Shown here: positions 6,588 to 26,790 of the stretch, one piece after another | Layout of the letters: every line of letters starts with the position of its first letter | How positions within the stretch are numbered: position 1 is the stretch's first letter | DNA from: Kineococcus rubinsiae | GTDB taxonomy: Bacteria; Actinomycetota; Actinomycetes; Actinomycetales; Kineococcaceae | NCBI RefSeq assembly: GCF_011839805.1 | Contig: NZ_VWPY01000044.1 | Coordinates: 1-34,511 of the forward strand | Direction: 5' to 3' | Length of the DNA stretch: 34,511 bases | Made by a program: the position numbers and the translations under genes | Notes under the pieces: model-generated | Database searches by the model: none | What the model was told of the DNA's origin: nothing | The model's input: the letters and a program-made list of their open reading frames with translations, nothing else

Positions 6588-7217
6588 ATGGACGACGCTG
6601 CCTCGAACGACCTGACCGCCTCCGACCCGCCCGCGTCACCACCGCCGGCGGGTGCGGCCTCCCCGTCCGCCCGTCGCCGCACGGGCCTGCTCCTCGGCGT
6701 CGCGCTCGTCGCCTACGCCCTGGACCAGGTGACGAAGGTCCTCGCCGTGGCCCGGCTCGAGCCCGGCGTCCAGCAGCCGTTCGTGGGGGAGCTGCTGCAG
6801 TTCCACCTCATCCGCAACCCCGGCGCCGCGTTCAGCCTGGGCACCGGCTCGACCGTCGTCTTCACGGTCGTGCAGAGCGCCGTCGTCGTCGCCGTCCTCG
6901 TGGTGGCGCGCCGCGTGCGCACGCCCGCCTGGGCCGTGGCCCTCGGCCTGCTGCTGGCGGGTGCCGCCGGCAACGTCACCGACCGGTACCTGCGGGCCCC
7001 GGCCGTCGGCCGCGGTCACGTCGTGGACTTCCTCGAGCTCCCGCACTGGCCGATCTTCAACCTGGCCGACTCCAGCGTCGTGGCCGCCGCCGTGCTCATC
7101 GCGGTCCTCGGCTTCCGCGGCACGGGCCTGGACGGCCGCCGCCAGCAGCGCCCCGAGCGCACCGACCGCCCCGCCCGCGGGCGTCGCACCGACCGCACGG
7201 AGGCCACGGATGCCTGA
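6588..7217 (+). CDS. lspA: Lipoprotein signal peptidase (signal peptidase II)
   Basis: LspA is the membrane aspartyl protease that removes signal peptides from diacylglyceryl-modified prolipoproteins. The 209-residue product has four hydrophobic segments and both catalytic motifs: D132 in GNVTDRYL and D161 in FNLADSSV. The family motif DQVTK (about 46-50) and the RNPGAAFS segment (about 80-88) are also present. Substrates in this window include the lipoprotein hydrolase at 20699-21841 and possibly the sortase at 26787-27470. A longer in-frame reading from 6462 would translate the tandem repeat, so the ATG at 6588 is preferred. The end overlaps rluD by 8 bases, indicating a coupled pair. The C-terminal tail is rich in R, T and D. 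Confidence 0.95.
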
Positions 7218-8133
7218 GACCCGCAGCCTCCCCGTCCCCGACGGCCTCGAGGGCGAGCGCGTCGACGCGGCCCTGGCGCGGCTGCTGGGGCTCTCCCGCA
7301 CCCGCACGGCCGAGCTCGCCGCGGCCGGCCTCGTGGTCATCGACGGCGTCACGGTGGGCAAGTCCGACCGCGTGCGCGGCGGGGCGTGGCTCGAGGTCGA
7401 GCTGCCCGACCCGCCGGCCGCGGCCGTCGCGGTGGCCGAGGTCATCGACGGCCTCGTGATCGTGCACGACGACGACGACATCGTCGTGGTGGACAAGCCC
7501 GTCGGCGTGGCCGCGCACCCGAGCCCCGGCTGGACCGGCCCCACCGTCGTCGGCGGCCTGCTGGGCGCGGGCTACACGATCGCGACGTCGGGGGCGGCCG
7601 AGCGGCAGGGGATCGTGCACCGCCTCGACGTTGGCACGTCGGGCCTGATGGTCGTGGCCAAGAGCGAGCACGCCTACTCCGTGCTCAAGCGCGCCTTCAA
7701 GGAGCGCACCGTCGAGAAGGTCTACCACGCGCTCGTCCAGGGGCACCCGGACCCGCTGCGCGGCACCATCGACGCCCCGATCGGCCGGCACCCCGGCGGC
7801 GCGTACAAGTTCGCCGTGACGGCCGAGGGCAAGCCCAGCGTCACCCACTACGAGGTGCTCGAGGCGTTCCGCGCCGCGGCGCTGGCCGAGGTGCACCTGG
7901 AGACCGGGCGCACCCACCAGATCCGCGTGCACTTCTCGGCGCTGCGCCACCCCTGCGTGGGGGACCTGACCTACGGCGCCGACCCGACGCTCGCAGCCCG
8001 GCTGGGGCTCACGCGGCAGTGGCTGCACGCCAAGCGGCTGGGCTTCGAGCACCCCGGCACGGGGCTGCCGGTGCAGTTCACCTCCAGCTACCCGGAGGAC
8101 CTGTCGACGGCGCTGGCCCGGCTCGCCGACTGA
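7210..8133 (+). CDS. rluD: RluA-family 23S rRNA pseudouridine synthase, RluD type
   Basis: RluD converts uridines in the helix-69 loop of 23S rRNA (1911/1915/1917 in E. coli) to pseudouridine. The 307 residues comprise an S4 RNA-binding domain (about 12-65) and the catalytic domain with the RluA signature [17 protein letters not shown]140 is the catalytic aspartate. The C-terminal half carries [23 protein letters not shown], also typical. The ATG overlaps the end of lspA, as in many bacteria where the two are adjacent. Precise uridine targets are assigned by analogy only. Confidence 0.93.
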
Positions 8134-8136
8134 CCA

Positions 8137-8166
8137 CCCCGGCCCCGTCCGCACCCGCGGCCGGGG
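8137..8166 (+). terminator. Candidate hairpin after rluD
   Basis: CCCCGGCC (8137-8144) and GGCCGGGG (8159-8166) form a perfect 8-base stem with a 14-base loop, beginning 4 bases after the rluD stop. A -10-like TACGAT lies downstream at 8203-8208 and may belong to dnaE. Confidence 0.45.
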
Positions 8167-8256
8167 CCCCGTGTCGGCGTCGGCCGTGTCGGCCGCGCCG
8201 CCTACGATGACGCCTCAGCCCCACGCCCGTCCCGCCCGCTCCAGGAGGCGCCTCGC

Positions 8257-12370: not shown

Positions 12371-12541
12371 GCAAAATAGTCGCCGTCGCGGGCAGACCCG
12401 ACGCCTCGCGCACCCATCCGGGGGACGTCCGGCGCCGAACAGCTCGTGGTCCGACGCCGGGCCCGTCCGCGCTCCGGTGTCGCTCTCGACCTGCTGCACC
12501 CGCGAGGACGCGGTCCGGAGCCCCCCAACACGAGGAGATCG

Positions 12542-15500
12542 ATGTCCCCGGGTGTCAGCACGTCCACGGACCCGGCCCCCGCGCCCGCCCTCGACCCGTC
12601 GGGCCCCAGCGGGCTGCAGCGGATCCTGCGGATCAGCTCTTCGCTCGTCGGCACCCAGGCGGCGACGAGCGTGCTGGGCCTGCTGTTCTGGACGATCGCC
12701 TCCCGCGGCTTCACCACCCGGCAGTTCGGCGTCGCGAACGCCGCCGTGTCGGCCATGGGCCTCATCGGGGCCCTCGGCACCCTCGGGCTCGGCACCCTGC
12801 TCATCGCCCAGCTGCCCCGCACCCACCAGGCGCTGCGCCGCGTCACGGTGCGGACCGCGCTCGCGGTCGCCGCGGTCGCGGCCACGCTGCTCGCGGTCGT
12901 GGTGCCCTTCGTCGCCATCCACCTGCTGGGCATCGGCAACCTGGCCGAGATCGCCGGCTCACCCGCGCACGCGACCCTCTTCGCCGTGGGGACCGGCCTC
13001 GCGGCCGTCGTCCTCGTCCTGGACCAGGCCGTGCTCGTGCTGGGCTCGGGCCGCCTGCAGCTGGAGCGCAACGTCGTGGCGAGCGCGACCAAGGTCGCGG
13101 CGCTGCTGGCCCTGGCCGCCGTGGGCGCCACCGACGGCATGGCGATCTTCGCGGCCTGGGCCGTGGGCACCGTCGTGTCGCTGCCCCTCGTCGCGCACCG
13201 CACCCGCGGCGGCCGCGCGCTGCAGTCCTCCCGCCGGCTCGTCGACCTGTCCGCCCTGCAGGGGCTCGGGCGCCGCGCGCTGAGCCACCACGCGCTGAAC
13301 ACGACGCTGCAGAGCCCGCTCATGCTCCTGCCGGTCCTCGTCACGGCGACGATCTCGTCCAGCGCGAACGCCCCCTTCGGGGCGGCGCTGCAGCTCACGG
13401 GCTTCGTCTTCGCCCTGCCCTACGCCCTCTCCATCGGCCTCTTCGCCGCGGCGGAGGGCGATCCGCGCGAGGTGCTGCGCCGCATGCGCGTCACCGTCCC
13501 GCTGGGGCTGGGCGTGAGCCTGGCCGCCGACCTCGCCCTGCTGCCGCTCGCGCCCCACGTGCTGCGCATCTTCGGTGCCGAGTACGCCGCCGACGGCGCC
13601 GACGTGCTGCGCATCCTCGTGCTGGCCGGTCTCCCGTTCGTCGTGAAGGACCACTTCGTGGCCCTGCGGCGCGTGCAGGGGCGCACCAGCGAGGCCACCC
13701 TCGTCCTCGTCGTCTTCACGGTCGCCGAGCTGGCCGGCGCCCTCGTCGGGGCCTCCCTCGGAGGCGTCGTCGGGCTGAGCGTCGGCTGGGTCGGCGTCCT
13801 CTTCCTCGAGGCCCTGGTCCTGGCGGTGCCCCTCGTGCGCGCCCACCGCCGCTTCCGGGACGGCGAGCCGGCTCCGACTGGGCGCCGGGCGGGCCCGGTC
13901 CCCGTGGACGGACCGCTCTGGAAGGACGACGTGGACGCTGCACGCCCCACCGACGGGAGCGTGCCCGCCGCCCGGGCCCGCCTCGACCCGCCGCCAGCCT
14001 CGAGGCTGCTGTGGGACGACGACGCGACACCGCCGGGTCCCGGCCGCGCCGCCGCGCCCACCGGCGAGAGGGCCGCGGACCGCGACCCCGCCCGGGTGGT
14101 CGCCGCGGAACCCGCACCGCGCCGTCGCCGCGTGCCCCTGACGGGCCCGGCGCTGCTCACCATGGCCCTGGGTCTGCTGTCGATGGCCTTCGCCGTGGAC
14201 CGCGCGCGCACCACGGGCGACGACGGCGGGGCCACGCAGGTGCTGTGGGAGCTCGGGCTCGTCCTCGTCGTCGCCCCGGCGGCGCTCGTCGTGGCCTGGC
14301 CGCGCGTGCCCGCGGCAGCCCGGACGACGGTGGCCGTGGCCGCCGTCGTGGCGCTTCAGCTGAGCCGGACCGTGCTGTACCCGACCCGGTTCATGTTCCA
14401 CGACGAGCTGCTGCACGCGAACCTGCTGCGGATCATCGGCGACACCGGACGCCTGTTCGGCGAGAACCCCCTGCTCCCGATCACCTCCTACTACCCGGGG
14501 CTGGAGGTCGTGACCGACGGGGTCCGCGACCTCACGGGCCTCGGCGCCCACACGAGCTCGGTCCTGGTCCTGCTCGCCGCGCGACTCGTCCTGGGCCTCG
14601 GGATCGTCGTGGTCGTCGCCCGGATCACCCGCTCCGCGCGGGCCGGCGCGATCGCCGTCGTGGTCTACGCCTGCAACCCCCAGATGCTGTTCTTCAACTC
14701 GCAGTTCTCCTACCAGACGCTCGCGCTGCCGCTGGCCGTGCTGACCGTCGCGGTGTTCCTCACGCGCGAGCGGGGCAGGCGCCGCGGGCTCGTGCTGCCC
14801 GTGCTCGCGATGGCCGCGGTCGTGGTCACCCACCACGTCACGGCGGCCCTGCTCGTCGCCGCCTTCGTCGGCTGGTTCGTGCTGGAGCTCGTGCTGCGCC
14901 GCCGCCGCGAGGACGAGGCCGGGGCCCTCGCGGTCGTCGCCGGCGCGGGGGTGGTCGTGTTCGCCGCGATGCTGGCCAACCCCGGCAACACCCTGGCCAG
15001 CTACCTCGGCTCGATCGTCACGAGCTCGTCGTCGGACCTGTCGTCGCTGGTCGAGGGCCGCCAGACCAAGGCCCTGTTCGCGAACACCGCCGGCGTCGGC
15101 CCGGCCCCGTGGGAGCAGGTGCTGCTCATCGGCGCGCTGCTCGTCACCGTGGCCGCGCTGCTGCCCTCGCTCTGGGCCGCGCGCGCGTGGTTCCGGGCCC
15201 GCCACACGCCGGCCGCCCTGCTCGTCCTCGTCGCCGTGCTGTACCCCGTCATCCCCGGCGGGCACGTCGCGCGGGCCACGGCCGAGGTCGGCGACCGCGC
15301 CGCGGGGTTCGTCTTCCTGGGGGTCGCCTTCGTCGTGGCCTGGTGGTTCGCGCGCCACGCCCCGACCCGCCGCCGGGCCGGGATCTTCGGCGCCGCAGCG
15401 ACCTTCACGTTCCTCGGAGGCGTCGTGCTCGGTTCCGGGACCGTCGCGGCGCAGCTGCCCGGGCCGTTCCTCGTCTCCGCCGACGCGCGCAGCGTCGACG

Positions 15501-15913
15501 CCGACAACCTCGCGGCGGCCGACTGGATGGCCACCGCCCTGCCCGCGGACAGCCGCGTGTACGCCGACCGCGTGACCGGCCTGCTGGCCGCCGCCGACGG
15601 CGGGCAGTTCACCGTCCGCCACATCTCCACCGGCATCGACGCCTCCCGCCTGGTCCTCAGCCCGGACTTCGGCGAGGAGGACGTGCGTCTCGTCCGCGAG
15701 GCGGGGATCCGCTACGTGGTCGTCGACCGGCGCGACGCCTTCGGGCTGCCCAACCAGGGCGTGTACATCGAGAGCGGCGAGTTCGGCTCCGACGGGCGCA
15801 CCACGCCCGTCCCGGCCGCCGCGCTGCAGAAGTTCGACGACGTGAAGGGTGTGGACCGCATCTACGACAACGGGTCGATCGCCGTGTACGACGTCTCGGG
15901 GCTGGACCGGTGA
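12542..15913 (+). CDS. Wzx-like flippase fused to GT-C-like membrane glycosyltransferase
   Basis: An 1123-residue membrane protein with two large hydrophobic halves. Residues about 20-430 look like a Wzx/MVF-type polysaccharide flippase (RILRISSSLVGTQAATS, RGFTTRQFGVANAAV, FGAEYAADGADVLRILVLAGLPF), with about 12 membrane segments. A polar, proline/arginine-rich linker follows (about 430-530). Residues about 530-975 form a second multi-pass region whose first external loop carries FMFHDELLH (D620/E621), the acidic motif expected of GT-C glycosyltransferases; an external globular domain (about 975-1123) ends the protein. By position it would move lipid-linked repeat units across the membrane and then transfer or polymerise them. 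GAGGAG precedes the ATG. The reading is continuous, with no sign of a frameshift. Which sugar or acceptor is used cannot be said. Confidence 0.8.
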   Translation: MSPGVSTSTDPAPAPALDPSGPSGLQRILRISSSLVGTQAATSVLGLLFWTIASRGFTTRQFGVANAAVSAMGLIGALGTLGLGTLLIAQLPRTHQALRRVTVRTALAVAAVAATLLAVVVPFVAIHLLGIGNLAEIAGSPAHATLFAVGTGLAAVVLVLDQAVLVLGSGRLQLERNVVASATKVAALLALAAVGATDGMAIFAAWAVGTVVSLPLVAHRTRGGRALQSSRRLVDLSALQGLGRRALSHHALNTTLQSPLMLLPVLVTATISSSANAPFGAALQLTGFVFALPYALSIGLFAAAEGDPREVLRRMRVTVPLGLGVSLAADLALLPLAPHVLRIFGAEYAADGADVLRILVLAGLPFVVKDHFVALRRVQGRTSEATLVLVVFTVAELAGALVGASLGGVVGLSVGWVGVLFLEALVLAVPLVRAHRRFRDGEPAPTGRRAGPVPVDGPLWKDDVDAARPTDGSVPAARARLDPPPASRLLWDDDATPPGPGRAAAPTGERAADRDPARVVAAEPAPRRRRVPLTGPALLTMALGLLSMAFAVDRARTTGDDGGATQVLWELGLVLVVAPAALVVAWPRVPAAARTTVAVAAVVALQLSRTVLYPTRFMFHDELLHANLLRIIGDTGRLFGENPLLPITSYYPGLEVVTDGVRDLTGLGAHTSSVLVLLAARLVLGLGIVVVVARITRSARAGAIAVVVYACNPQMLFFNSQFSYQTLALPLAVLTVAVFLTRERGRRRGLVLPVLAMAAVVVTHHVTAALLVAAFVGWFVLELVLRRRREDEAGALAVVAGAGVVVFAAMLANPGNTLASYLGSIVTSSSSDLSSLVEGRQTKALFANTAGVGPAPWEQVLLIGALLVTVAALLPSLWAARAWFRARHTPAALLVLVAVLYPVIPGGHVARATAEVGDRAAGFVFLGVAFVVAWWFARHAPTRRRAGIFGAAATFTFLGGVVLGSGTVAAQLPGPFLVSADARSVDADNLAAADWMATALPADSRVYADRVTGLLAAADGGQFTVRHISTGIDASRLVLSPDFGEEDVRLVREAGIRYVVVDRRDAFGLPNQGVYIESGEFGSDGRTTPVPAAALQKFDDVKGVDRIYDNGSIAVYDVSGLDR

Positions 15914-16692
15914 GCGCGCCCGTGACGTCCCCGCCCGCGGTGGACGAGGCGCCCGCGGACGCCGTGGGCCCCGGCGGGGCGGTCGTGGCCGCGGTCCTCG
16001 TCGTCCTCGCCGCCACGGCGGTCGTCGGCGACCTCCCGGTCGGCGTGCGCGCGCCGCTGACCCTCCTCGCGGTCGCCGCGACCGCGGCCCGGCTGGTCCG
16101 GCACCGCGGACGGGGCGGCCTCGACGCGCTGCTCGTCGGGGTCGGCGGCAGCCTCGTCGCCCTGGCGCTCACGGGGATGGTGCTCGGCCTCAGCCCCGCC
16201 GGGCTGCACCCGGGCACGTGGGCCGTCGCCCTCCAGGTCGTCGCGCTGGTCTGCCTCCTGGTCTCCCTCGTGCGCCCCCCGACCCGCGCCGTACCCGCCG
16301 AGGACGTGGTGGACGCCGTCCCCGGCGACGGGCGCCGGGCGGCGCTGCGGCACGCCCCCTGGGTCCTCGCGGCCGCCGCGGTGACCGTCGTGGCCCTCGT
16401 CGTCGCCGTCCGCAGCACCACCGCCGGTGAGGACACCCCCGTGCAGATGTCGATCGCGTCCCTGGCGGGGACGCAGGCCGTCGTCGTCGTCTCGGCCGAG
16501 GAGGCCACGGGCGCGCTGGAGCTGCGCACCGATCCCGGCGACGGCTCGGCGGTCACCTACCCCGTCCTCAGCGTCCCCGCCGGCGGGTCCGTCTCCACCA
16601 CGGTCGTGGTCCCGACCACGGGCCGCGTCGTGGTCACCGTCAGCAACCCCGGCCAGGTCCGGCCGCTGCGCACCCTCGTGGTGAACCGGTGA
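15910..16692 (+). CDS. Hypothetical membrane protein of polysaccharide locus
   Basis: A 260-residue protein I do not recognise beyond topology. Five hydrophobic segments are visible (about 22-42, 46-61, 71-95, 103-121, 152-170), then an external C-terminal domain of about 90 residues rich in beta-forming residues (QAVVVVSAEEA, TTVVVPTTGRVVVTVS). The overall plan resembles DUF1616-type membrane proteins of polysaccharide loci, but that is a guess. Its GTG overlaps the stop of the flippase fusion and its own stop overlaps the next GTG, both in GTGA, so it is tightly coupled to polymer export and assembly genes. It could be an accessory factor for polymerisation or anchoring. Confidence 0.75.
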   Translation: MSAPVTSPPAVDEAPADAVGPGGAVVAAVLVVLAATAVVGDLPVGVRAPLTLLAVAATAARLVRHRGRGGLDALLVGVGGSLVALALTGMVLGLSPAGLHPGTWAVALQVVALVCLLVSLVRPPTRAVPAEDVVDAVPGDGRRAALRHAPWVLAAAAVTVVALVVAVRSTTAGEDTPVQMSIASLAGTQAVVVVSAEEATGALELRTDPGDGSAVTYPVLSVPAGGSVSTTVVVPTTGRVVVTVSNPGQVRPLRTLVVNR

Positions 16693-17867
16693 CCGCCGCC
16701 GCGCCCGGAGTGAGCACAGGCCCCGTCACGGGCCGGGGCGGGCGCCGTCCCCGCGTCCTGCACGTGGTCCAGCGCTTCTTCCCCGAGATGGGCGGGCTGG
16801 AGACCCACGTCGCCGAGGTCGCGTCGCGGCTCGCGGCCACGGGGGAGTTCGACCTCACCGTCCTGGCCACCGACCGCAGCGGTGCCCTGCCGCGCACCGA
16901 GACTGTCGCGGGGCTCGCGGTGCAGCGCCGCCGCTCGTGGCCGCGCGAGGGCGACCTCTACCTCTCCCCGGCGCTGCCCGCCGTCATCGCGCGCGGGGAC
17001 TGGGACCTCGTCCACGTCCAGGGCGTCAACACCCTCGCCCCGCCGCTGGCCATGCTGGGCGCCGTCGCCTCCCGCACCCCGTTCGTGCTCACCTTCCACA
17101 GCGGGGGGCACTCCTCGGCGACGCGGACGGCGATGCGCGACACCCAGTACCGGGTGCTGGCGCCGCTGCTGCGCCGGGCGCGGCGCCTCATCGCGGTCAG
17201 CCGCTTCGAGCGCTCGGCGTTCGCGGCGCTCACGGGCCTGCCCGAGGACCGCTTCAGCGTCATCCCGAACGGCGGTGCCCTGCCTCCCTCGCCGACGGGG
17301 GAAGCGCCCGTGCCGGGCCGCATCGTCTCCAGCGGCCGGCTGGAGCGCTACAAGGGCCACCACCGCGTGGTCGAGGCCCTGCCGCTGGTCCGCGAGCGGG
17401 TGCCGGGCGCCACGGTCGTCGTGCTCGGCGCCGGGCCCTTCGAGGCCGAGCTGCGCGAGCGCGCCCGGCGGCTCGGCGTCGCGGACGCGGTGGCGATCCG
17501 CTCGCTGCCCCCGGCCGACCGCGCCGCCATGGCGGGGGAGCTCTCCGCCGCGAGCGTCATGGCCGCGATGTCCGACTACGAGGCTCACCCCGTGGGCGTC
17601 ATGGAGGCCGTCACGCTCGGACTGCCCGTCGTGGGCGCCGACGTCGCCGGCATCGGCGACCTCGTCGAGGACGGGCTCGTGCGTGGCGTGCCGCTCGAGA
17701 GCTCGCCGCGGGTCCTCGCCGACGCCCTCGTCGAGGAGCTGCAGGCCGTCGCCGCCCGGGGCGGGGCCCCGCACCGGCCGCGGGCGCTGGACCTGCCGAG
17801 CTGGGAGACCAGCGCGGCGGCGACCGCCGAGGTCTACCGCACGGCGCTGCGGACGGTCCGCCGGTGA
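16689..17867 (+). CDS. GT4-family glycosyltransferase
   Basis: A 392-residue cytoplasmic GT-B glycosyltransferase. The N-terminal Rossmann domain begins VLHVVQRFFPEMGGLETHV, the usual GT4 acceptor-domain pattern. The C-terminal domain holds IVSSGRLERYKGHH, where donor binding starts, and the E-x7-E motif E298/E306 (YEAHPVGVMEA). GT4 enzymes are retaining and usually use nucleotide-sugar donors; the specific sugar is not deducible. The gene overlaps both neighbours by 4 bases (GTGA), so it is probably made together with the flippase fusion and the next GT4 enzyme. Confidence 0.92.
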   Translation: MTAAAPGVSTGPVTGRGGRRPRVLHVVQRFFPEMGGLETHVAEVASRLAATGEFDLTVLATDRSGALPRTETVAGLAVQRRRSWPREGDLYLSPALPAVIARGDWDLVHVQGVNTLAPPLAMLGAVASRTPFVLTFHSGGHSSATRTAMRDTQYRVLAPLLRRARRLIAVSRFERSAFAALTGLPEDRFSVIPNGGALPPSPTGEAPVPGRIVSSGRLERYKGHHRVVEALPLVRERVPGATVVVLGAGPFEAELRERARRLGVADAVAIRSLPPADRAAMAGELSAASVMAAMSDYEAHPVGVMEAVTLGLPVVGADVAGIGDLVEDGLVRGVPLESSPRVLADALVEELQAVAARGGAPHRPRALDLPSWETSAAATAEVYRTALRTVRR

Positions 17868-19024
17868 GCACCGCCCGCGGCTCCTCGCCGTCCGCCGCGC
17901 CCGGCACCACCGGCCGCCCCCTGCGGGTCGTCCACGTCATCACCACGCTGACGACGGGCGGCGCGGAGCGGCAGCTGGAGATGCTGGTGCAGCGCAGCAC
18001 GTCCGAGACCGCGACCGTCGCCCTCTACGAGGCCGGTCCCGTCGGGGACGCCATGGTGACCCGCGGGGACCGCGTGCGGGTCCTCGGCATGGACGGCTGG
18101 CGCAAGCCCCTCGCCGTGCTGCGCCTCGCGCGGCTGCTGCGCGCCTGGGCCCCCGACGTCGTCCACGTGCACCTGCTCGCGGCGCAGCTGTGGGGCATCC
18201 CGGCGGCCCGGCTCGCGGGGGTGCCCGTCGTGGTCTCCAGCGAGCACTCCCTCATGGCCGACACCGTCGAGGGCCGCCCGCACGCCTGGTGGCTGCGCGG
18301 GCTGTACCGGGGGCTGGAGCGCCTCGCGACGCACACCGTCGCGGTGTCCGCGACGACGGCCGAGCGGCTCGAGGGCTGGGGCGTCGCGCCGGCGCGGATC
18401 ACGGTGGTGGACAACGGCGTCGACGTCGAGGCGCTCGCGCCGCGACCGGCGGACCGGGCGGCCGTGCGCGCCGAGCTGTCGGTCGCGGACGGCGACGTGG
18501 CGCTCGCGGTCGTGGGCCGCCTGGACCCCGTCAAGCGGGTCGACGAGGTCCTGCGCGCGTGCGCGCCCCGCCTGCTCGCGGGCGGGCACGTCCTGCTCGT
18601 CGCGGGCGCCGGCGACCTGCTGGGCGAGCTGCAGGCCCTCGCCGCCGACCTCGGCGTCGCCGGGGCCGTGCGCTGGCTCGGCCCGCGCGGTGACGTGCCC
18701 CGGGTGCTCGCGGCGGCCGACGTCGTCGTCAGCGCCTCGCGCGACGAGACGTTCGGCATGGCCGTCGTCGAGGCCGTGGCCGCCGGCCTGCCCGTGGTGT
18801 TCGTGGAGTGCCCCGCCCTGACGGAGCTGCCCACCGTCCCGGAGGGGGCGGTGCCGGCGGCCCCGGGGGCCGAGGGGCTGCGGGCGGGCCTGGCGGAGCT
18901 CGAGCGCCGCGGGCTGCACCGCCGGCCCGTGCCCGCGGAGCTCACCGCCCGCTACGGGGCGGCCGCCGCCGCGGCGTCCGTGGACGCCCTGCACCGCCGG
19001 CTGCTGGCGGCCCGCCGCCCGTGA
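17864..19024 (+). CDS. GT4-family glycosyltransferase
   Basis: A 386-residue GT-B enzyme. The N-terminal domain opens with VVHVITTLTTGGAERQLEMLV, the GGAE pattern common in polysaccharide GT4 enzymes. The donor domain has VVGRLDPVKRVDEVL and the E-x7-E pair E295/E303 (DETFGMAVVEA). A 17-residue S/P/G-rich N-terminal extension precedes the fold. It is the fourth gene of the plus arm, with a GTGA overlap to the previous gene. It should add one sugar to the lipid-linked repeat unit on the cytoplasmic face; donor and linkage are unknown. Confidence 0.92.
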   Translation: MSTARGSSPSAAPGTTGRPLRVVHVITTLTTGGAERQLEMLVQRSTSETATVALYEAGPVGDAMVTRGDRVRVLGMDGWRKPLAVLRLARLLRAWAPDVVHVHLLAAQLWGIPAARLAGVPVVVSSEHSLMADTVEGRPHAWWLRGLYRGLERLATHTVAVSATTAERLEGWGVAPARITVVDNGVDVEALAPRPADRAAVRAELSVADGDVALAVVGRLDPVKRVDEVLRACAPRLLAGGHVLLVAGAGDLLGELQALAADLGVAGAVRWLGPRGDVPRVLAAADVVVSASRDETFGMAVVEAVAAGLPVVFVECPALTELPTVPEGAVPAAPGAEGLRAGLAELERRGLHRRPVPAELTARYGAAAAAASVDALHRRLLAARRP

Positions 19025-19117: not shown

Positions 19118-20623
19118 ATGCCCGTCGCGCGCGCCACCGGAAGGACCCTCCTGCGGGCGGGGCGCCTGCTCACCGCCGCGCTGGTCGCGCTGGTCGTCGC
19201 CGCGGGCCTCACCGCGGGCGCGCCCCGCGCCGAGGCCGCGACCCCGCCGCCCGCGTCGAGCTTCGTGCAGCGCAGCGGCTCCGGCCTCACCCTGGCCGGG
19301 GCCCCGTTCCGCTTCTCGGGCACCAACGTCTACTGGCTGGGCCTGGACGACAACGTCCGCGATGCCGCGGGCGCCCCGACCTACCCGACGAGGTTCCGGG
19401 TCGACGACGCCTTCCGCGCCGCCCAGGCCGCGGGCGGCACCGTCGTGCGCACCTGGGGCGGGCTCGTCGGCTGCGGGCGCTGCATCGAGCCGACGCGGGG
19501 GACGTTCCAGGACAGCGCCTTCGCCTCCCTCGACTACGCCGTCGCGACGGCCGCGCGCTACCGCCAGCGCCTCGTCGTGACCCTCGTGGACAACTGGGAC
19601 TACTACCACGGCAGCAAGAACACGTTCACGGGCTGGCGCGGCCTGGGGGAGTCGGCGTTCTTCTCCGACCCGGGAGTCATCGCCGACTACCAGGCCTACA
19701 TCACCCACGTCGTCGAGCACGTGAACCCCTACACGGGCCTGCGCTACGCCGACGACCCCACCATCATGGGCTGGGAGACCGGCAACGAGATGTGGTGCCA
19801 GACCTGCGCGGGCAACCACTGGGACGGCTCGTGGACGCGGGCGGTCGCCGACCACCTCGACCGCGTCGCCCCGAAGCAGCTCGTGGTCGACGGCCACGGC
19901 ACCGACCCGTCCTGCCGGACGGGGTGCCTGCACGAACCCAGCCTCGACATCGCCTCGGTGGACGTCGTCGACGACCACTTCTACCCGATGCAGCTGGACC
20001 GGGTCCGCTCCTCGGCGGCCACGGCCGCGCGCCACGGCAAGGCCTACCTCGTCGGGGAGTACGCGTGGAACGGGGCGCGGGGCGGGGAACCCCTGGCCAC
20101 GTTCCTGGACGCCGTGCGCACCAGCGGTGCCGCGGGCGCGCTGACCTGGTCGGTGGTGGCGCACCACGACACCGCGGGGTTCGTGGACCACGACGACGGC
20201 TACCAGTACTTCTTCCCGGGCCGCACCGCCGACGAGCGGGCCCGCACGGGCACGCTGCAGGCCTTCGCCCGCGCCGTGGGGGCGCCGGAACCGCCGCGGT
20301 GGGCGATCCCGCCCACGCCGTGCGGAGTCACCGTCACGCGCACCGCGTCGGGCCAGGCCCTCAGCTGGCGCGGTGCGAGCCCCGCCGTGGTCTACGTCGT
20401 GCAGCGCCTGGACCGGACCACGCCCGGGGCGACCTGGCAGACGCTGACGTGGGAGGCGACCGACCAGCGCGTCGCGAACGGGCCCCTGTGGACGGACAGC
20501 TCGGCGGCCGCGCGCTCGATCGGCGTCGCGGCCTACCGCGTCGCCGGGCTGTCCGCGAGCCGCGTGCTCGGGGGTTTCTCCGCGAGCGCGGACACGGGTA
20601 CCCGGACGGCCTGCGCCGCCTGA
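19118..20623 (+). CDS. Secreted GH5-like glycoside hydrolase (mannanase/cellulase type)
   Basis: A 501-residue exported enzyme. Residues 1-40 form a signal peptide with a basic start, a long hydrophobic core and an ARAEAA-type cleavage region. The catalytic (beta/alpha)8 domain has E224 (GWETGNEMW), the likely acid/base, and E314 (VGEYAWNG), the likely nucleophile, placed as in clan GH-A endo-beta-mannanases and cellulases. Paired cysteines in CGRC and in CRTGC could form disulfides. The last ~120 residues look like a beta-rich accessory module. It ends the plus arm, 93 bases after a GT4 gene. Likely role: trimming or releasing the locus polymer, or degrading plant mannan; the first fits the context better. 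Confidence 0.85.
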   Translation: MPVARATGRTLLRAGRLLTAALVALVVAAGLTAGAPRAEAATPPPASSFVQRSGSGLTLAGAPFRFSGTNVYWLGLDDNVRDAAGAPTYPTRFRVDDAFRAAQAAGGTVVRTWGGLVGCGRCIEPTRGTFQDSAFASLDYAVATAARYRQRLVVTLVDNWDYYHGSKNTFTGWRGLGESAFFSDPGVIADYQAYITHVVEHVNPYTGLRYADDPTIMGWETGNEMWCQTCAGNHWDGSWTRAVADHLDRVAPKQLVVDGHGTDPSCRTGCLHEPSLDIASVDVVDDHFYPMQLDRVRSSAATAARHGKAYLVGEYAWNGARGGEPLATFLDAVRTSGAAGALTWSVVAHHDTAGFVDHDDGYQYFFPGRTADERARTGTLQAFARAVGAPEPPRWAIPPTPCGVTVTRTASGQALSWRGASPAVVYVVQRLDRTTPGATWQTLTWEATDQRVANGPLWTDSSAAARSIGVAAYRVAGLSASRVLGGFSASADTGTRTACAA

Positions 20624-20698: not shown

Positions 20699-21841
20699 TC
20701 ACAGGCCGGCCGCCGCGCGGTGCAGGACACCGAACGCCGGGTCCCCCGTGGAGCGGACGAGGTCGTAGCCGTCGGTGCCGGTCGAGCTGTAGTGCCAGAG
20801 CAGGTAGCCGGCGGCACCGGCCGTCAGGGCCGCGGAGACCTTCGCCTGCAGCAGGTCCGCCCGCCGCTGCCGGCCGGCGGCGTCGGTCGCCGTGATGCCG
20901 GCCTCGCCCACCACCAGGGGTTTGCCGATCTCGCGCGCGATGGCAAAAGAGCACGCGACGGGGGCGGACGTGCTGGTGCACTCCGCGGAACCGGGGTCCG
21001 GAAGGGTCGTGCCGTCGGCACCCGGAAGCGCCTCGGTGTCCGAGCCGTAGCGCGCCCAGTCGTGCACCTCGACGAAGTCCAGACCCTGCTGGTTGTAGAC
21101 CTCGCGGAAGTCGGCCCCGCTGCCGCCGGGTGCGCCGTTGCCCTGCGTCCCCAGCGTCACGAGGTGGTTCGGATCGGCGGCGTGCACGACGGCCGACAGG
21201 TCTCCCGCGAAGCTCACGAGGACCGAGCGTCCCCGGCTGTCGCGCTCGGACGTCTCGGCCTCGTTGACCAGCATCCAGCCGAGGATCGTCGGCTCGTCGC
21301 GGTAGTGCGTGGCGATGGCGCGCGCGTAGTCGCGCAGGGACGACCGGGCGTCGCCGTAGGGGCGGCGGTAGCCCTCGGAGTAGTACCGCCCGCCGTCCGC
21401 CTGGGCGAGGGAGGTCCCCGGCTCGCCCGTGCTGCAGTCGCCCGGGCCGTCCTCGAGCACCGGGAGCAGCCGCACACCGGCGCGCCGTGCCGCCTCGACC
21501 ACGCGGTCGACCGCGCTGAAGTCCCGGCCGGAGTCCGTGTAGGTCTGGTAGGCCCAGAACCGCACGACCGTGACGCCGGCGTCCTCGCGCAGCCACCGGA
21601 ACTGCTCCTCCAGGTCGTCCGCGGGGATCCGCGACGCCGGACGGCAGGAGTAGCGGTCGCTGGCCGCGGCGTCGTAGAGGTTCACCCCGACGAAGCGGAA
21701 GGGGCTGCCGTCCACCACGAGCTGCCGGCCCTCGCGCGTCACGAAGCCGTCCGCCTCGTCCGCGGAGCACGCGACGAGCGTCGTGGCGGTCAGCAGGGCG
21801 GCGACGACCGCGCCGAGCAGGGTCCTCCAGCGGGTGCGCAT
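20699..21841 (-). CDS. Lipoprotein GH5-like glycoside hydrolase
   Basis: A 380-residue predicted lipoprotein: basic start, hydrophobic core and a lipobox-like LVAC at about residues 22-25, then a clan GH-A-like (beta/alpha)8 domain. E194 (MLVNEAE) is the probable acid/base and E313 (VVGEAGI) the probable nucleophile. The opening REGRQLVVDGSPFRFVGVNLY pattern is shared in style with the secreted hydrolase on the other arm (GSGLTLAGAPFRFSGTNVY), so the two are probably distant paralogues. The ATG overlaps the stop of the upstream GT4 gene by one base (TGATG). It should sit on the outer membrane face, anchored by lipid after LspA cleavage, and act on the polymer made here. Substrate is not known. 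Confidence 0.85.
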   Translation of the reverse strand: MRTRWRTLLGAVVAALLTATTLVACSADEADGFVTREGRQLVVDGSPFRFVGVNLYDAAASDRYSCRPASRIPADDLEEQFRWLREDAGVTVVRFWAYQTYTDSGRDFSAVDRVVEAARRAGVRLLPVLEDGPGDCSTGEPGTSLAQADGGRYYSEGYRRPYGDARSSLRDYARAIATHYRDEPTILGWMLVNEAETSERDSRGRSVLVSFAGDLSAVVHAADPNHLVTLGTQGNGAPGGSGADFREVYNQQGLDFVEVHDWARYGSDTEALPGADGTTLPDPGSAECTSTSAPVACSFAIAREIGKPLVVGEAGITATDAAGRQRRADLLQAKVSAALTAGAAGYLLWHYSSTGTDGYDLVRSTGDPAFGVLHRAAAGL

Positions 21842-23025
21842 CACGCGGGGGGCGGCGCGTGCAGCACCGCGGCCATCCGGTCGACGACGGCGCTCCAGCT
21901 GAACTCGGTCGTCGCGCGGCGGGCGGCCGCGTCGGCCATGGCGAGCGCGGCGTCGGGGGAGCGCAGCAGCCGCGCCAGCGCCGCGGCCAGGGCGCCCGGG
22001 TCCCGCGCCGGGACGACGGTCCCCTCGCGGCCGTCGCGCAGCACGTCGGGGATGCCGCACGACGCCGTCGTCACGACGGGCACGCCGTGGGCCATGGCCT
22101 CCAGCAGCACCAGGGGCAGCGGGTCGAAGACCGTCGGCAGCACGAACACGTCGGCGTCCGCGTAGAGCTCGGCGATGCGATCCCGGTCGTGCACGCGCCC
22201 GAGCACCTCGACCCCGGGCTGCGGGGGCACGTCGGGACGGGTGCCGACCAGCCGCAGCCGTGCGCCGGGGAACTCCCGGCGCAGCTCGGCGAAGGCCCGC
22301 AGCAGGTCCGGGCCACCCTTGCGGGCGAAGTCGTTGCCGATGAACAGCAGGGACGGGCCGTCCGCGCACCACCCGGCACGGCGCCGCGCGGTGGAGGAGG
22401 GCAGGAGGCCGCCGTTGATGCCGGCCCCGACGACCGTGACCGCGAAGGGGTCGACGCCGTAGTCCTCGACCAGCGAACGCCGCGTCGCGCGGCTGAAGGC
22501 GAACACGTGCGCGGCCGCGCGGTAGGCCCGCTCCTCCCGCGCGTACCAGCGCCTGAGCGCTCTGCCCCGCAGCGGGTTCCAGGCCGGCCAGTGCTCCGCG
22601 GACTGGCGGTGGGTGCAGTCGACGTACAGGTACGTCGCGGCGTCGGGCACCTCGAACAGGGCGTGCACCTGGAACACCGGGGCGTGCGGGTCGCCCACCC
22701 GGAACCGTTCCCGGGCCGCGCGCACGGTGCGCAGGCGGTACCCCAGGCCGCTCTTGAAGAACTGCTCCGCCCACCGCACGCGCGAGGGGCGGAACGTCGT
22801 CAGCGCCACGGCCGCCCGCTGCCACGCCGTGAGGTCGCACGCGATGCGGCCCGCGACGGGGAACCGGCGCTCGAGCTCCTCGAACAGGTACGGCGTCAGC
22901 GCGTCGCCCCGCGAGGCGAGCAGCAGGCCGGTCGTGGTGCGCCGCCGCGGGACGGCGGTGCCGGGCGCCGGACCCGCGGGGGCCCTCGCGGGACCCGCCG
23001 GCGCGCGGGGGGAGTGCAGGACCAT
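21841..23025 (-). CDS. GT4-like glycosyltransferase
   Basis: A 394-residue GT-B glycosyltransferase. The N-terminal half has DPHAPVFQVHALFEVPD and YLYVDCTHRQSAEHW, a pattern met in actinobacterial surface-polysaccharide enzymes. The donor domain shows LLFIGNDFARKGGPDLLRAF and, in place of E-x7-E, D-x7-E in FDPLPLVLLEAM; that E-to-D change is found in other GT4 enzymes. The first 30 residues are a P/A/R-rich extension of doubtful relevance, so a start further in is possible. The gene lies 11 bases after the upstream GT4 and overlaps the hydrolase start, within one minus-strand operon. Confidence 0.88.
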   Translation of the reverse strand: MVLHSPRAPAGPARAPAGPAPGTAVPRRRTTTGLLLASRGDALTPYLFEELERRFPVAGRIACDLTAWQRAAVALTTFRPSRVRWAEQFFKSGLGYRLRTVRAARERFRVGDPHAPVFQVHALFEVPDAATYLYVDCTHRQSAEHWPAWNPLRGRALRRWYAREERAYRAAAHVFAFSRATRRSLVEDYGVDPFAVTVVGAGINGGLLPSSTARRRAGWCADGPSLLFIGNDFARKGGPDLLRAFAELRREFPGARLRLVGTRPDVPPQPGVEVLGRVHDRDRIAELYADADVFVLPTVFDPLPLVLLEAMAHGVPVVTTASCGIPDVLRDGREGTVVPARDPGALAAALARLLRSPDAALAMADAAARRATTEFSWSAVVDRMAAVLHAPPPA

Positions 23026-23036
23026 GGCGGTTCCCG

Positions 23037-24422
23037 TCAGACGGAGGGGCGGGACAGCGAGGGGTCCTGGTGACCGGCGTCCGCGACAGAGCGGGGGTCC
23101 CGCTGCGGGGAGGCGTCGTTCAGCGCGGTGAGGTCGAGCACCACCGGGGTCCCGGCGGCCCGGGACACCTCGCCGGCCCCGGGGACCCCGAGGCCCGAGA
23201 ACACCCCGAGGTAGGCGTCGACGGAGTTCGACCAGGAGTGCGGGTCGGCGTAGCGGTGGCCCCTCAGCGACAGCAGCTGCCGCAGCGCCACGGCCAGCGC
23301 CGCCGGGTCGGCGGGGGGTACGGCCAGGGCGCCGTCGTACTCCGCGGCCGCTTCGACGAGCCCGCCGACCGACGTCACGACCGTGGGCAGGCCCGCGCTC
23401 ATCGCCATGTGCAGCGGACCGGAGGCCGAGGACCGGCGGTAAGGCAGGACCAGGGCCTCCGCCCGGGCGAAGTGCTCGCGCACCTCGGCGTCGCTGACGT
23501 AGCGGTTCACGACGTCGATGAGGTCGGCGTGGGGGCTGGCGGCGGCGGCGTCCAGGGGGTGCGTCCAGCCCTCCCAGGTCTCCCCGACGATGCTCAGCCG
23601 AAACTGCTCGGCCACCTCGCGGGGCAGCGCGGAGAACGCCTCGACCAGGTCCTCGAGGCCCTTGTAGGGCCGGATCGTGCCGAAGAACAGCAGCCGCATC
23701 GGAGCCATCGCGTCCGGGTCGCCGGGGACGTCCCCGGTCGGCCGGTCACCGGTCGGCCGGTCCTCGGCGGAGGTCCGCCGGTGCGGCAGGAGGACGGTGG
23801 TGGGAACCGCGTCGCCGTCGACGACGTGGTCGTAGGGGCCGTGCGGGATCGTCGTGACCGTCGCGGGGTCGAGGCCGTAGACGTCCTGCAGCGCAGCCGC
23901 GTCGAAGGCGGAGTGCACGACGTGCGCGTCGACGCGGCGCAGCAGGGCCCGCATCGCGAGCCGGACGTAGCGCACCACGCCGGGGACGCGGGCCTCGCCC
24001 GTGTCCTGGACCTCGTGCCACTCCACGACGACCTTCGCGCCGCGGCGCCGCGCGAGGGTCGCGATCAGCAGGTAGGAGTGCAGCACCGCGCCGGTCCACC
24101 ACTGCAGCACGACGACGTCGGGTCGCTGCTCGGCGAGGAACGCCGCGGCCGCGGGGGCCGTGCGCCCCCAGTACCAGTCGACGCCGTCGAGGACCTCGAC
24201 GCCCGGGGCGTACTGCAGGTCGTTCACGACGGTCCCCACGCGCTCGCGCCCCGGATACAGGGCGCGCGGCACGAGGCGGCGCATGAGCAGCGCACTCGTC
24301 GGCGTGACGGCCGCGAACGCGTTCGTCAGGCGGCAGGTGTAGTAGCTGATCCCCGAGGTGAAGCGCCACCCGGAACCCACGACCAGGACGCGGGGAACCC
24401 GCCCTGCTGCCTCCGCCGTCAC
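23037..24422 (-). CDS. GT4-like glycosyltransferase without E-x7-E motif
   Basis: A 461-residue GT-B protein. It opens VPRVLVVGSGWRFTSGISYYT, with the glycine-rich first loop, and has VEWHEVQDTGEARVPG in the acceptor domain and LLFFGTIRPYKGLEDLVEAF at the donor-domain start. The usual E-x7-E stretch reads YRRSSASGPLHMAMSAGLP, which lacks the first glutamate; this variant is known in related GT4 families. A 40-residue insert at about 220-250 contains a tandem DRPTG repeat (about 23737-23766). The GTG start at 24422 overlaps the preceding GT2 stop in GTGA. Polar residues past 430 look unstructured. Donor unknown. Confidence 0.85.
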   Translation of the reverse strand: MTAEAAGRVPRVLVVGSGWRFTSGISYYTCRLTNAFAAVTPTSALLMRRLVPRALYPGRERVGTVVNDLQYAPGVEVLDGVDWYWGRTAPAAAAFLAEQRPDVVVLQWWTGAVLHSYLLIATLARRRGAKVVVEWHEVQDTGEARVPGVVRYVRLAMRALLRRVDAHVVHSAFDAAALQDVYGLDPATVTTIPHGPYDHVVDGDAVPTTVLLPHRRTSAEDRPTGDRPTGDVPGDPDAMAPMRLLFFGTIRPYKGLEDLVEAFSALPREVAEQFRLSIVGETWEGWTHPLDAAAASPHADLIDVVNRYVSDAEVREHFARAEALVLPYRRSSASGPLHMAMSAGLPTVVTSVGGLVEAAAEYDGALAVPPADPAALAVALRQLLSLRGHRYADPHSWSNSVDAYLGVFSGLGVPGAGEVSRAAGTPVVLDLTALNDASPQRDPRSVADAGHQDPSLSRPSV

Positions 24423-25339
24423 GCGCTCTCCCGCGCGTTCTCTCGGGTGCCGGAGTCCAGGCGGAGTTCGAGGGCCCGCAGGTCGATGACCGTGTCCGTC
24501 TCCGGGACCGGCGTCAGGTTCTCGTCGACGGCCGCCTGACGCTGTGCGGCGACCTGCGGGGACGGGGCGTGGGCGACGCTGCGGGCCTCGGCGGCGGGCG
24601 CGGAGGTGTGCGTGCGGCCGTCTCGCCAGCGCTCGCTCAGGATCGTCTTCAGCACGCGCAGGCCGTCGCGGACGGCGTGCAGGTTGCTCTCGCCGTGGAG
24701 GCGCTGGAGCTCCACGCTGGGCACCTCGTGGATCTGCAGGTCCGCCGCGGCCACCCGGCAGTTGATGAGGGTCTCGATCTCGAAGCCGTCGCCCCACTGC
24801 GCCGTGGTCAGCCGCGAGGACGGGATGCTGAGGTGCTGCAGCACGTCTCGCCAGAAGGCGTTGTAGCCGTAGCAGAGGTCGGTGTACCGGGTGCGGAACA
24901 GCAGGTTCGTGACGAGGGTCAGCATCCGGTTGCCGGCGTCGCGGACGAGGGTGATGTCCTCGCTCCCGCCGGCCGCCAGCACGCGGCTGCCCTTGGCGAA
25001 GTCGGCGCCGGCGACCAGCGCGGCCACGAAGTCGCCGATCTCGCGGGGGTCGGCGGAGCCGTCGGCGTCGAACATGACGACGATGTCGCCCGTGGCCGCC
25101 TCGAAACCCACGGCGAGGGCGTTCCCCTTCCCCTTGCGCGTCTGCTGCAGGAAGGTCGCGCTCGGCAGGACCCGCGCCACGACCTCGGCGGTGTCGTCGG
25201 TGGAGTGCCCGTCGACGACGATCACCTCGTGGACGGGTGGCAGCTGCGGCAGGACCACCTCGAGGTTCCTGGCCTCGTTGCGGGCCGGGACGATGATGGT
25301 GACCTTCGGGGTCGTCGCGTCGCGAAGCTGGGTCGTCAT
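24419..25339 (-). CDS. GT2-family glycosyltransferase, DPM1-like
   Basis: A 306-residue GT-A glycosyltransferase. The N-terminal domain (about 10-240) has VTIIVPARNEARNLEVVLP, EVIVVDGHSTDDT and the metal-binding DAD motif in VMFDADGSADP, followed by KGSR, the usual pattern of polyprenyl-phosphate mannose/glucose synthases and related GT2 enzymes. No C-terminal membrane segments are seen; the last ~60 residues are polar. It may make a polyprenyl-phosphate sugar that a GT-C enzyme, possibly the fused C-terminal half at 12542-15913, would use; that link is inference. GGAGG precedes the ATG, the first gene of the minus arm. A longer in-frame reading from 25510 would begin inside the promoter and is rejected. 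Confidence 0.9.
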   Translation of the reverse strand: MTTQLRDATTPKVTIIVPARNEARNLEVVLPQLPPVHEVIVVDGHSTDDTAEVVARVLPSATFLQQTRKGKGNALAVGFEAATGDIVVMFDADGSADPREIGDFVAALVAGADFAKGSRVLAAGGSEDITLVRDAGNRMLTLVTNLLFRTRYTDLCYGYNAFWRDVLQHLSIPSSRLTTAQWGDGFEIETLINCRVAAADLQIHEVPSVELQRLHGESNLHAVRDGLRVLKTILSERWRDGRTHTSAPAAEARSVAHAPSPQVAAQRQAAVDENLTPVPETDTVIDLRALELRLDSGTRENARESA

Positions 25340-25902
25340 GGTGCTGAACCTCCGGCGGATGGGCGGTGATGTCGGGTGCCCGCGTCGTCGAGGGGCGCGC
25401 AGTCGGCGACCGTCGCGGTTCCGGGACGAGGGGCGACCACGGATGCCCTTCGGCGCGGTGCGCCGACCGGATGGGCCGTTCAGGCGACAAAATCGCTGTG
25501 TAGAGGACATGTCACTCGCTGTCGATAAAATGCCGGTCTCGTCGCGGCGACGGCGTCCTCACCTCCGGGCGTGGGACCTGCGCGGTCGGGGTTCCCGAGG
25601 AACTCCGTCCGGGATCCCCACCCGGGCCGGGAGGACGGTGCGTGCGGCGGAGGCGTTGTGGCGCAACCGGTCGGAGTCGAGGCCCGGGTGAGGTCCTGCG
25701 GCCGTCGCGTGGGCCGTCGACACCCCGGCACCGGCGGGGCGAGTGCGCGGGTGCGGGAAGTGGGTCACACTGACGACCGCGCCGCGGTGCGGAGTCGCGA
25801 GTTCGGCACCCGCCGACCCTCCCTCCGGGAACCCACCCGCCGGCCGTCGTCGTCCCCGGTGCCGTGCGGTGCCGCGTGGGCACGCTCGAGGGAGAACCAA
25901 CC
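25340..25902. other. 563-base gene-free region between minus arm and DUF4397 operon
   Basis: No convincing gene is seen on either strand. It holds the divergent control regions of the GT2-led operon (minus) and of the DUF4397-sortase operon (plus). The part at 25490-25530 is the most AT-rich in the neighbourhood (CAAAATCG, GATAAAATG). Arginine- and proline-rich open frames across the region are composition artefacts. Confidence 0.6.
25497..25525 (-). promoter_or_regulatory. Candidate promoter of the minus polysaccharide arm
   Basis: Read on the minus strand: TCGACA (25525-25520), 17-base spacer, TACACA (25502-25497). The -35 box matches TTGACA at five of six bases; the -10 box is weaker. The spacer contains GCGAGTGA (25519-25512), also present upstream of the plus arm. 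The predicted transcript has a leader of about 150 bases before the ATG at 25339. Confidence 0.55.
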
Positions 25903-26790
25903 GTGGAACCGATCTCCGACCCGCGCGGTCTGCGCCGCGCCGGCCGTCCTGCGTCGCTCGCCGCCGCCGTCCTGGCCGCGGTCCTGCTCGTCCTGCTCAC
26001 GGCCACCGGGGCGCGCGCCGCCACCGTGCCCGGTGACGCGTGGGTGCGCGCCGGGCACCTCGTCCCCGGGCTGCAGGCGATGGACGTCACCGCCACGCCC
26101 GCCGGCGGGGGCGCCACCGTCGAGCTGGCCCTCGGGGCCGGGTACGGCGACGTCGCCCCGTACCAGCGCCTCGCGCCGGGCACCTACACGGCCGAGGTGC
26201 GCCCCGCCGGCGCCGCCCGCACGAGCGCGCCCGTGCTCTCGAGCACCTTCACCGCCGACGCCGGCAAGGCGTACACGCTGGCCGGTCTGGGGTCGCTGCA
26301 GGCGCCGCGCCTGGCCACGCTGCAGGACGACCTCACCCCGCCCGCCGCCGGTCAGGTCCGCGTCCGGGTGCTGCCCGCGGCCTCGGCCGCCCCGGCCGTC
26401 ACGGTGACGGCCCGCAACGGGCCGGTGATCGCCGACGGCGCCGCCTTCGGCCAGCCCACGGCCTACGCCTCGGTCCCCGCCGGGCAGTGGGTCCTGGAGA
26501 CCGCCGCCGCCGGGCTGCCCGCGGCCACCGCGACGGTCGACCTCGCGGCCGGCGGCGTCTACACGCTCGTCGTCGTCGACGCCGACGGGGCGCTGGGCGT
26601 CCGCGCGGTCACCGACGCGGCGGGGGCTGCGGCCATGCCGGTCGGCGGCGCGCAGACCGGTGGCGGCGGTACGGCCGCCGCGGCGGCCTCCGCCCCGCGG
26701 CCCGACTCCGTCCCCGTCCTCACCGGCGCCGCCGTGCTGCTCCTCGCGGCCGTCCTGGTGCGGCGACGGGTGCGCGGCCGGACCGCGTGA
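25903..26790 (+). CDS. DUF4397 domain-containing surface protein
   Basis: A 295-residue exported protein. Residues 1-37 form a signal peptide ending ATGARA. The mature part has a DUF4397 domain (AWVRAGHLVPGLQAMDVTA; YQRLAPGTYTAEVRPAG), a beta-sandwich of unknown function common in Firmicutes and actinobacteria, and a second beta-rich stretch (about 135-235). Near the C-terminus is PVGGAQTGGGG (about 247-257), then a hydrophobic segment (about 270-285) and a basic tail RRRVRGR, the plan of a cell-wall sorting signal without LPxTG. The following gene is a class F sortase, so this is the probable substrate. GAGGGAGA upstream supports the GTG at 25903 over one at 25864. Confidence 0.88.
   Translation: MEPISDPRGLRRAGRPASLAAAVLAAVLLVLLTATGARAATVPGDAWVRAGHLVPGLQAMDVTATPAGGGATVELALGAGYGDVAPYQRLAPGTYTAEVRPAGAARTSAPVLSSTFTADAGKAYTLAGLGSLQAPRLATLQDDLTPPAAGQVRVRVLPAASAAPAVTVTARNGPVIADGAAFGQPTAYASVPAGQWVLETAAAGLPAATATVDLAAGGVYTLVVVDADGALGVRAVTDAAGAAAMPVGGAQTGGGGTAAAAASAPRPDSVPVLTGAAVLLLAAVLVRRRVRGRTA

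Follow-up and report, generated by a model that had tools for sequence, protein, structure and literature searches.

A conserved fusion of flippase-like and GT-C-like halves in an actinobacterial polysaccharide locus

Work on how a lipid-linked glycan passes from a flippase to the transferase or polymerase outside usually deals with two separate proteins. Here we analyse a gene of the soil actinobacterium Kineococcus rubinsiae that encodes a flippase-like and a GT-C-like half in one chain. It lies in a window of 34,511 nucleotides (the whole stretch of DNA that was analysed: contig NZ_VWPY01000044.1, positions 1 to 34,511, of assembly GCF_011839805.1), in a locus with the same kinds of parts as the imp/gim locus of Actinoplanes missouriensis. 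As described for the latter, ImpA, ImpB and ImpF are GT4 enzymes, ImpG is a GT2 enzyme, ImpC is Wzx-like with 11 predicted helices, ImpD is a five-helix protein without domains, ImpE is of the Alg6_Alg8 type with 11 helices and is called a possible Wzy, and the adjoining gimB encodes a GH5 hydrolase (PMC12691653). The impA to impF mutants are reported to release fewer spores, with impD and impE giving the fewest of the single mutants; the impG and whole-cluster mutants are reported to release about as many as the wild type (PMC12691653). A later paper gives slightly fewer spores for the cluster mutant and calls the impG and cluster result a mystery, its authors suspecting competition with other gene clusters, or freed nucleoside diphosphate sugars or lipid carrier (PMC13390465).

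Two further described systems share parts with the locus. The three-component glycosylation system with GT136 also combines a lipid-phosphate sugar synthase, a flippase and a GT-C enzyme, but these are encoded by separate genes, the flippase has four helices, the donor is a pentofuranose and single sugars are added (PMC11127046). All three kinds of component are present in the K. rubinsiae locus, by resemblance only. In the haloarchaeal Agl pathway, as described, AglJ and its partners assemble an oligosaccharide on one dolichol phosphate, which is then flipped and transferred by the STT3-type AglB (PMC3871713). Initiation on a lipid monophosphate, extension, flipping and STT3-type transfer are the points of likeness; the dolichol carrier is archaeal and the product is an N-glycosylated protein (PMC3871713), and the GT2 enzyme of the window falls far below the AglJ equivalog cut-off.

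The imp-type gene set is complete in the window, with GT2, GT4s, flippase, five-segment protein, GT-C and GH5. The loci differ in that ImpC and ImpE are separate proteins with impD lettered between them, whereas the window encodes one polypeptide followed by the ImpD-like gene, and in that three GT4 enzymes are described there against four here (PMC12691653). By domain order we would read the window protein as ImpC and ImpE fused.

The fused gene is a single open frame from ATG to the TGA at 15911-15913 (12542-15910 on the forward strand, 1123 residues). It is present in one copy in the genome, and the G+C content by codon position of its stop-to-stop frame (12380-15913; 0.77/0.53/0.97) is coding-like. 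Hydropathy of the window protein gave 12 hydrophobic segments in residues 35-432, none in residues 433-533 and 12 more in residues 534-964; the alignment-averaged profile agrees roughly with this pattern. Basic loops alternate along the chain, which, read by hand, places the linker inside and the loop that carries the HDELLH motif outside. A reading of this DNA made earlier from the letters alone (the sequence-only reading) had proposed one polypeptide with flippase-like and GT-C-like halves, uninterrupted through a polar linker, and this architecture was right.

Eight in-frame fusions were found, in the window and in loci L002, L003, L005, L008, L030, L038 and L039. Compared with the window, the first halves of the seven relatives are 60-83% identical and the second halves 54-75%; the linkers range from 43 to 120 residues over the eight frames and are 11-31% identical to the window linker. 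Since seven other genomes carry the two halves in one frame, each half being 54-83% identical, the fusion is more than chance, and it is confirmed as real. The copy of Kineococcus siccus, to which the window shows 90-91% protein identity, is spread over two contigs (L004 and L006) and cut within the linker. A scan of contigs gave seven loci, of which four were fused: Kineosporia mesophila, a Lapillicoccus and a Humibacillus metagenome-assembled genome, and Pseudokineococcus. The sequence-only reading had taken the two functions to be normally separate genes. Eleven loci (L007, L010, L011, L031-L037 and L043) hold both genes apart in one stretch, Rhizobium and Mesorhizobium among them, at distances that in some cases reach several kb (about 5 kb in L031-L033), with weaker flippase matches in L035, L037 and L043 (1e-29 to 1e-32). 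In Frankia there are two genes, flippase first, and the GTG start of the second overlaps the TGA stop of the first (GTGA).

Relatives were surveyed with a 190-residue probe from the second half. Within the genus, 4 of 6 genomes matched, own genome included, with the G002 match at a contig start; two drafts (700 and 1060 contigs) gave no match to the probe. Within the class, 13 of 118 genomes matched at E <= 0.001; nine of these matches, below 1e-20, comprise two fused (own genome and G051) and seven split, and the other four are weaker (7e-6 to 5e-4). Within the phylum, 4 of 296 genomes matched at E <= 1e-12, the own genome and G071 being counted in both surveys. In trees of the first half (20 rows) and of the second half (19 rows), both drawn without L042 and L043, all fused rows, K. 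siccus counted with them, form one clade at 100/99, with Frankia as its sister (86/90 and 96/93). One change of state between fused and split suffices in each tree. The fusion is a conserved domain fusion of one clade, inside a known kind of polysaccharide locus. The fused L030 and the split L033 belong to the same genus (g45) and fall in different clades in both trees, which implies gene transfer or an old duplication at some stage.

Three other loci deserve mention. A 1223-residue frame in L042 was considered as an independent second fusion in another class and rejected, since its first 600 residues are off-frame and only the second half is present (the flippase match there is weak, 2e-9); open-frame length alone can therefore mislead in high-GC DNA. 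In Deinococcus L012 a flippase homologue is present, and the 615-residue hypothetical protein beside it (7108-8955) matched neither the profile of the GT-C half nor any Pfam family at 0.1. On Rhizobium plasmid L013 (3973-6732) the place of the GT-C and GT4 counterparts is taken by shorter annotated genes, two for hypothetical proteins and one of 678 bases for a glycosyltransferase, which gives the impression of decay.

Flippases of the Wzx/MOP type have 12-14 transmembrane helices, and the 12 segments of the first half fit the number expected. In a seven-member alignment of the first half, which includes Frankia's separate gene and the fragment from K. siccus, three of the members had Polysacc_synt (PF01943) hits at E <= 1, the best at 1.8e-5. 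The Pfam cut-off for this family was passed by 2 of 3 separate-gene homologues, those of Rhizobium L010 (29.2 bits) and Deinococcus L012 (33.5 bits), both named oligosaccharide flippase in their records; the Mesorhizobium homologue L011 stayed below it (19.6 bits). These homologues are 35% (Rhizobium), 38% (Deinococcus) and 31% (Mesorhizobium) identical to the first half. From the alternating basic loops we read both ends of this half as cytoplasmic. Segment number, loop charge pattern and the profile match in relatives are shared with Wzx, from which the window protein differs in carrying a C-terminal GT-C part and in its own sub-threshold score. By family and topology, the first half probably flips a lipid-linked glycan.

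GT-C enzymes carry their catalytic acid in the first outer loop, and an acidic motif there is defining. The second half has such a motif, D621 E622 within its first outer loop, following its third segment. D621, E622, H625, H764, H765 and R919 are identical in all 21 rows of the alignment, Rhizobium and Mesorhizobium included. In a seven-member alignment at E <= 1, DUF6541 matched 5 of 7 members and PMT_2 3 of 7; we would count DUF6541 with the GT-C families. For the window second half itself, the Pfam matches were DUF6541 (1.7e-5), GT87 (6.6e-4), PMT_2 (0.01) and PTPS_related (0.012), all under their cut-offs; with the whole protein PTPS_related was the sole match, below threshold, and PHROGs and NCBIfam gave nothing. 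Among 13 further members (ten split, three fused), DUF6541 matched 3 (best 4e-17) and PMT_2 matched 2 at E <= 0.01, and the remainder showed no GT-C family at that threshold. An AlphaFold2 model of the second half, built from seven sequences, reached a mean predicted local distance difference test (pLDDT) of 62.6 and a predicted template modelling score of 0.63; by our reading it splits one of the 12 segments, giving about 13. In Foldseek its rows 1-12 were complexes containing oligosaccharyltransferase (OST), PglB, AftA, ArnT and AftD, with probabilities of 0.96-1.00 and E from 2.3e-4 to 0.15; judging from chain length, the chains matched in the OST complexes would be STT3. A Foldseek search of viral models gave nothing at E <= 0.001.

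The second half thus appears, by the fold search, to have a GT-C fold, and the GT-C interpretation of the sequence-only reading, which had pointed to the HDELLH loop, is supported. It resembles the STT3/PglB/ArnT/AftA type in its fold matches, the DE of its first outer loop and its outer C-terminal domain, and differs in two extra segments before the core, in its fusion to a flippase and in matching no solved chain by sequence. Fold, motif and the precedent of ImpE suggest that it would act as an outward-facing glycosyltransferase.

Elsewhere in the own genome, contig C29 (44429-46420, L009) holds a 981-residue open frame that matches DUF6541 in full length (E 2.4e-95), likely a distant relative of the GT-C half. 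In L036 (8253-11432, reverse strand) the GT-C frame continues past the C-terminal domain with three extra hydrophobic segments (residues about 934-1004), which may be an ImpD-like part joined on or a mere frame overhang.

The AglJ profile (TIGR04182) matched all 15 members of the locus GT2, with E down to 1.2e-39, lower than for any other family. For the window GT2 it was also the best profile (E 2.4e-32), at 112.5 of the 325 bits set as equivalog cut-off, and a sequence-profile search of solved-structure chains put dolichol-phosphate-mannose (DPM) synthase first (1.6e-22). The AglJ-like GT2 hints at a monophosphate-linked carrier. Phosphoglycosyltransferases of PF02397 occur in all 16 genomes searched, one to five in each. 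In the 11 genomes with known coordinates, only one has such a gene inside the stretch (G093, L034), the own genome being among the other ten; these 11 do not include the five named genomes. The genome of L008 has one at C1:489500, a position that would be some 4 kb past the L008 stretch provided that C1 is the same contig.

We lean slightly towards reading the protein as a 12-segment MOP (Wzx-type) flippase, a flexible cytoplasmic linker and an outward-facing GT-C, that is, ImpC and ImpE of an imp-type matrix-polysaccharide locus in one chain. In this scheme the locus GT2 would start the glycan on polyprenyl phosphate, the GT4 enzymes would extend it and the first half would flip the lipid-linked oligosaccharide. 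The second half would then use it outside as donor, either to polymerise it or to transfer it whole onto a growing chain, and the hydrolase-like enzymes, by comparison with GimA and GimB, would cut the polymer later. Fusion would keep the supply of the donor and its use in a 1:1 ratio and in close proximity, and the flipped unit may be handed straight to the transferase within the fused protein.

More tentatively, the route to the exopolysaccharide may be neither that of classical Wzx/Wzy nor that of a side-chain decorator: an AglJ-like GT2 would begin the repeat on polyprenyl monophosphate, GT4s would extend, and the fused flippase/STT3-like GT-C would both flip and polymerise. If this were so, the logic of archaeal N-glycosylation would be used for a matrix polymer. 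By our reasoning, with ImpG as initiator the lipid carrier would escape trapping only in mutants that lack ImpG or the whole cluster, so that an impG deletion should be about as mild as deletion of the cluster; a monophosphate-linked carrier with the GT2 as initiator could therefore explain the mild impG phenotype, and the idea gives a testable reason for that puzzle.

Several observations weigh against the main reading. The reading as ImpC and ImpE fused is drawn from domain order and not from sequence comparison. The window protein itself scored 16.6 against a cut-off of 28.2 bits for PF01943 and 23.8 against 29 bits for DUF6541, and DUF6541 was absent at 0.01 from 10 of the 13 further members. 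Profile searches of solved-structure chains gave no flippase beyond MurJ (E 0.43) with the first half and no GT-C relative with the second. In the fold search, made with the model of pLDDT 62.6, only the first of 219 rows had E <= 0.001, and the geometry of the best rows was weak, with TM-scores of 0.30-0.45 and root-mean-square deviations of 10-16 Å. Full-length prediction of the fused protein, on which the arrangement of the halves would rest, reached a pLDDT of 39. The second half might also be translated from a start of its own. The AglJ likeness is not exclusive: each of the 15 GT2 members matches eleven NCBIfam families, and the ten besides AglJ include ArnC, GpgS and PpgS. The mild impG phenotype also fits a dispensable side-chain enzyme, and the competition with other clusters suspected by the imp authors (PMC13390465) would account for it in another way.

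That two genes were joined by assembly or sequencing error is hardly credible. The K. siccus copy, broken by contig ends in the linker, could be cited for it, but eight in-frame examples come from separate assemblies, and assembly error or a chance frame was rejected. The two-gene relatives that might have pointed to such an error do exist; they are sister lineages of a fused form found in eight genomes. We see an even chance that the fusion fixes stoichiometry and co-localisation only, with a passive linker and with each half working like its separate counterpart, a view compatible with the other readings. The length and sequence of the linker are unconstrained and split versions persist in other lineages; nothing direct opposes this view, and retention of the fusion throughout the clade fits channelling or tethering. 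Quite improbable, in our judgement, is a plain Wzx-Wzy fusion, in which the second half would be a polymerase of the Wzy/ligase type (GT-C_B) acting on units linked through diphosphate, with the gene for the priming phosphoglycosyltransferase located elsewhere. The imp authors' view of ImpE (PMC12691653) and the presence of PF02397 in every genome favour it, with one gene inside the L034 stretch and another maybe near L008. Against it stand the absence of PF02397 from the stretch in 10 of the 11 genomes with coordinates and the twelve leading Foldseek rows, with no O-antigen ligase or SEDS chain among the best 50 of 219; nor did any Wzy or O-antigen-ligase family of Pfam match the whole protein, the second-half alignment or the 13 further members.

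The last of these Pfam results, extended to the proteins scanned at the locus, can also be turned towards a three-component decorator, in which the GT2 would make a polyprenyl-phosphate-monosaccharide, the flippase half would move it and the GT-C half would attach side-chain sugars to a polymer that other machinery makes. The use of polyprenyl-phosphate donors by GT-C enzymes, together with a dedicated flippase, has precedent (PMC11127046), the locus GT2 is like DPM synthase and AglJ, and a dispensable donor enzyme fits the mild impG deletion. We consider it unlikely nonetheless. Four GT4 enzymes accompany the GT2 in the locus, a second flippase or polymerase was not recognised among the proteins scanned, and the flippases of such systems are small, with three to four helices according to sources that include PMC11127046. 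Furthermore, the impE deletion gave, with impD, the fewest spores of the single mutants (PMC12691653), more of an effect than expected for a decorator.

If the fused flippase/GT-C reading is right, the protein offers a handle on how flipping and outer transfer are coupled in building a polysaccharide coat: with a natural single-chain version, a two-gene sister in Frankia and a knock-out series in the counterpart locus, the coupling becomes accessible through the linker. No flippase-GT-C fusion was described in the titles and opening abstract lines searched, which lay outside most subscription journals, and DUF6541 was not named in the literature searched. Kineococcus radiotolerans is described as growing in cubes whose cells are held together by a thick extracellular matrix, with later dispersal of zoospores (PMC2587704), and the locus may link the making and breakdown of a matrix to actinomycetes that form zoospores.

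Table 1. Features of the fused gene and its surrounding locus (coordinates are positions in the window)
Feature	Coordinates	Strand	Basis or remark
Shine-Dalgarno-like AGGAG	12533..12537	+	ends four bases 5' of ATG 12542; read by eye
Fused flippase-GT-C gene, 1123 residues + stop	12542..15913	+	open frame, single copy, fused relatives
Flippase half, MOP/Wzx type, residues 1-436, 12 hydrophobic segments	12542..13849	+	profiles, hydropathy
Polar linker, residues 437-534, 98 residues	13850..14143	+	alignment; predicted cytoplasmic from loop charges, read by hand
GT-C half, residues 535-1123, 12-13 hydrophobic segments and polar C-terminal domain (about 965-1123)	14144..15910	+	profiles, model, hydropathy
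HDELLH, residues 620-625, first outer loop of GT-C core	14399..14416	+	alignment
Membrane protein, five hydrophobic segments and polar C-terminal part	15910..16692	+	GTG overlaps fused-gene stop; ImpD-like by position and segment number
GT4 glycosyltransferase GT4a	16689..17867	+	GTGA overlap with five-segment gene
GT4 glycosyltransferase GT4b	17864..19024	+	GTGA overlap with GT4a
Secreted hydrolase-like protein GH_a	19118..20623	+	26% identity to rhizobial cellulase-family hydrolase
GH5-type hydrolase GH_b	20699..21841	-	Pfam Cellulase above cut-off; start inferred
GT4 glycosyltransferase GT4c	21841..23025	-	lies between GH_b and GT4d
GT4 glycosyltransferase GT4d	23037..24422	-	start uncertain
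GT2 like AglJ / dolichol-phosphate-mannose synthase	24419..25339	-	profiles; start inferred
DUF4397 protein	25864..26790	+	GVDTG sorting-like C-terminus; 27.6 vs cut-off 29 bits

The fused gene, the five-segment gene, GT4a and GT4b are chained by three GTGA junctions, and neither Pfam nor NCBIfam matched GH_a itself. Most of the set recurs around relatives, both fused and split, and GT2, GT4, GT-C, flippase and GH5-like genes stand together on the Rhizobium and Mesorhizobium plasmids. By profile, the five-segment gene is present in 13 of the 18 loci with a GT-C half, the five without it being L010 and L034-L037. A GT2 of the AglJ-like kind was found in the window and 14 loci, and in addition in L042 and L043; it was not found within the L008, L035, L038 and L039 stretches, nor on the contigs of K. 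siccus. DUF4397 homologues lie near the locus in L002, L003, L005, L031 and L032. In two split loci the counterparts of GT4a and GT4b share one open frame and look fused themselves (L007 11525-15004, 1160 residues; L033 14197-16572, 792 residues).

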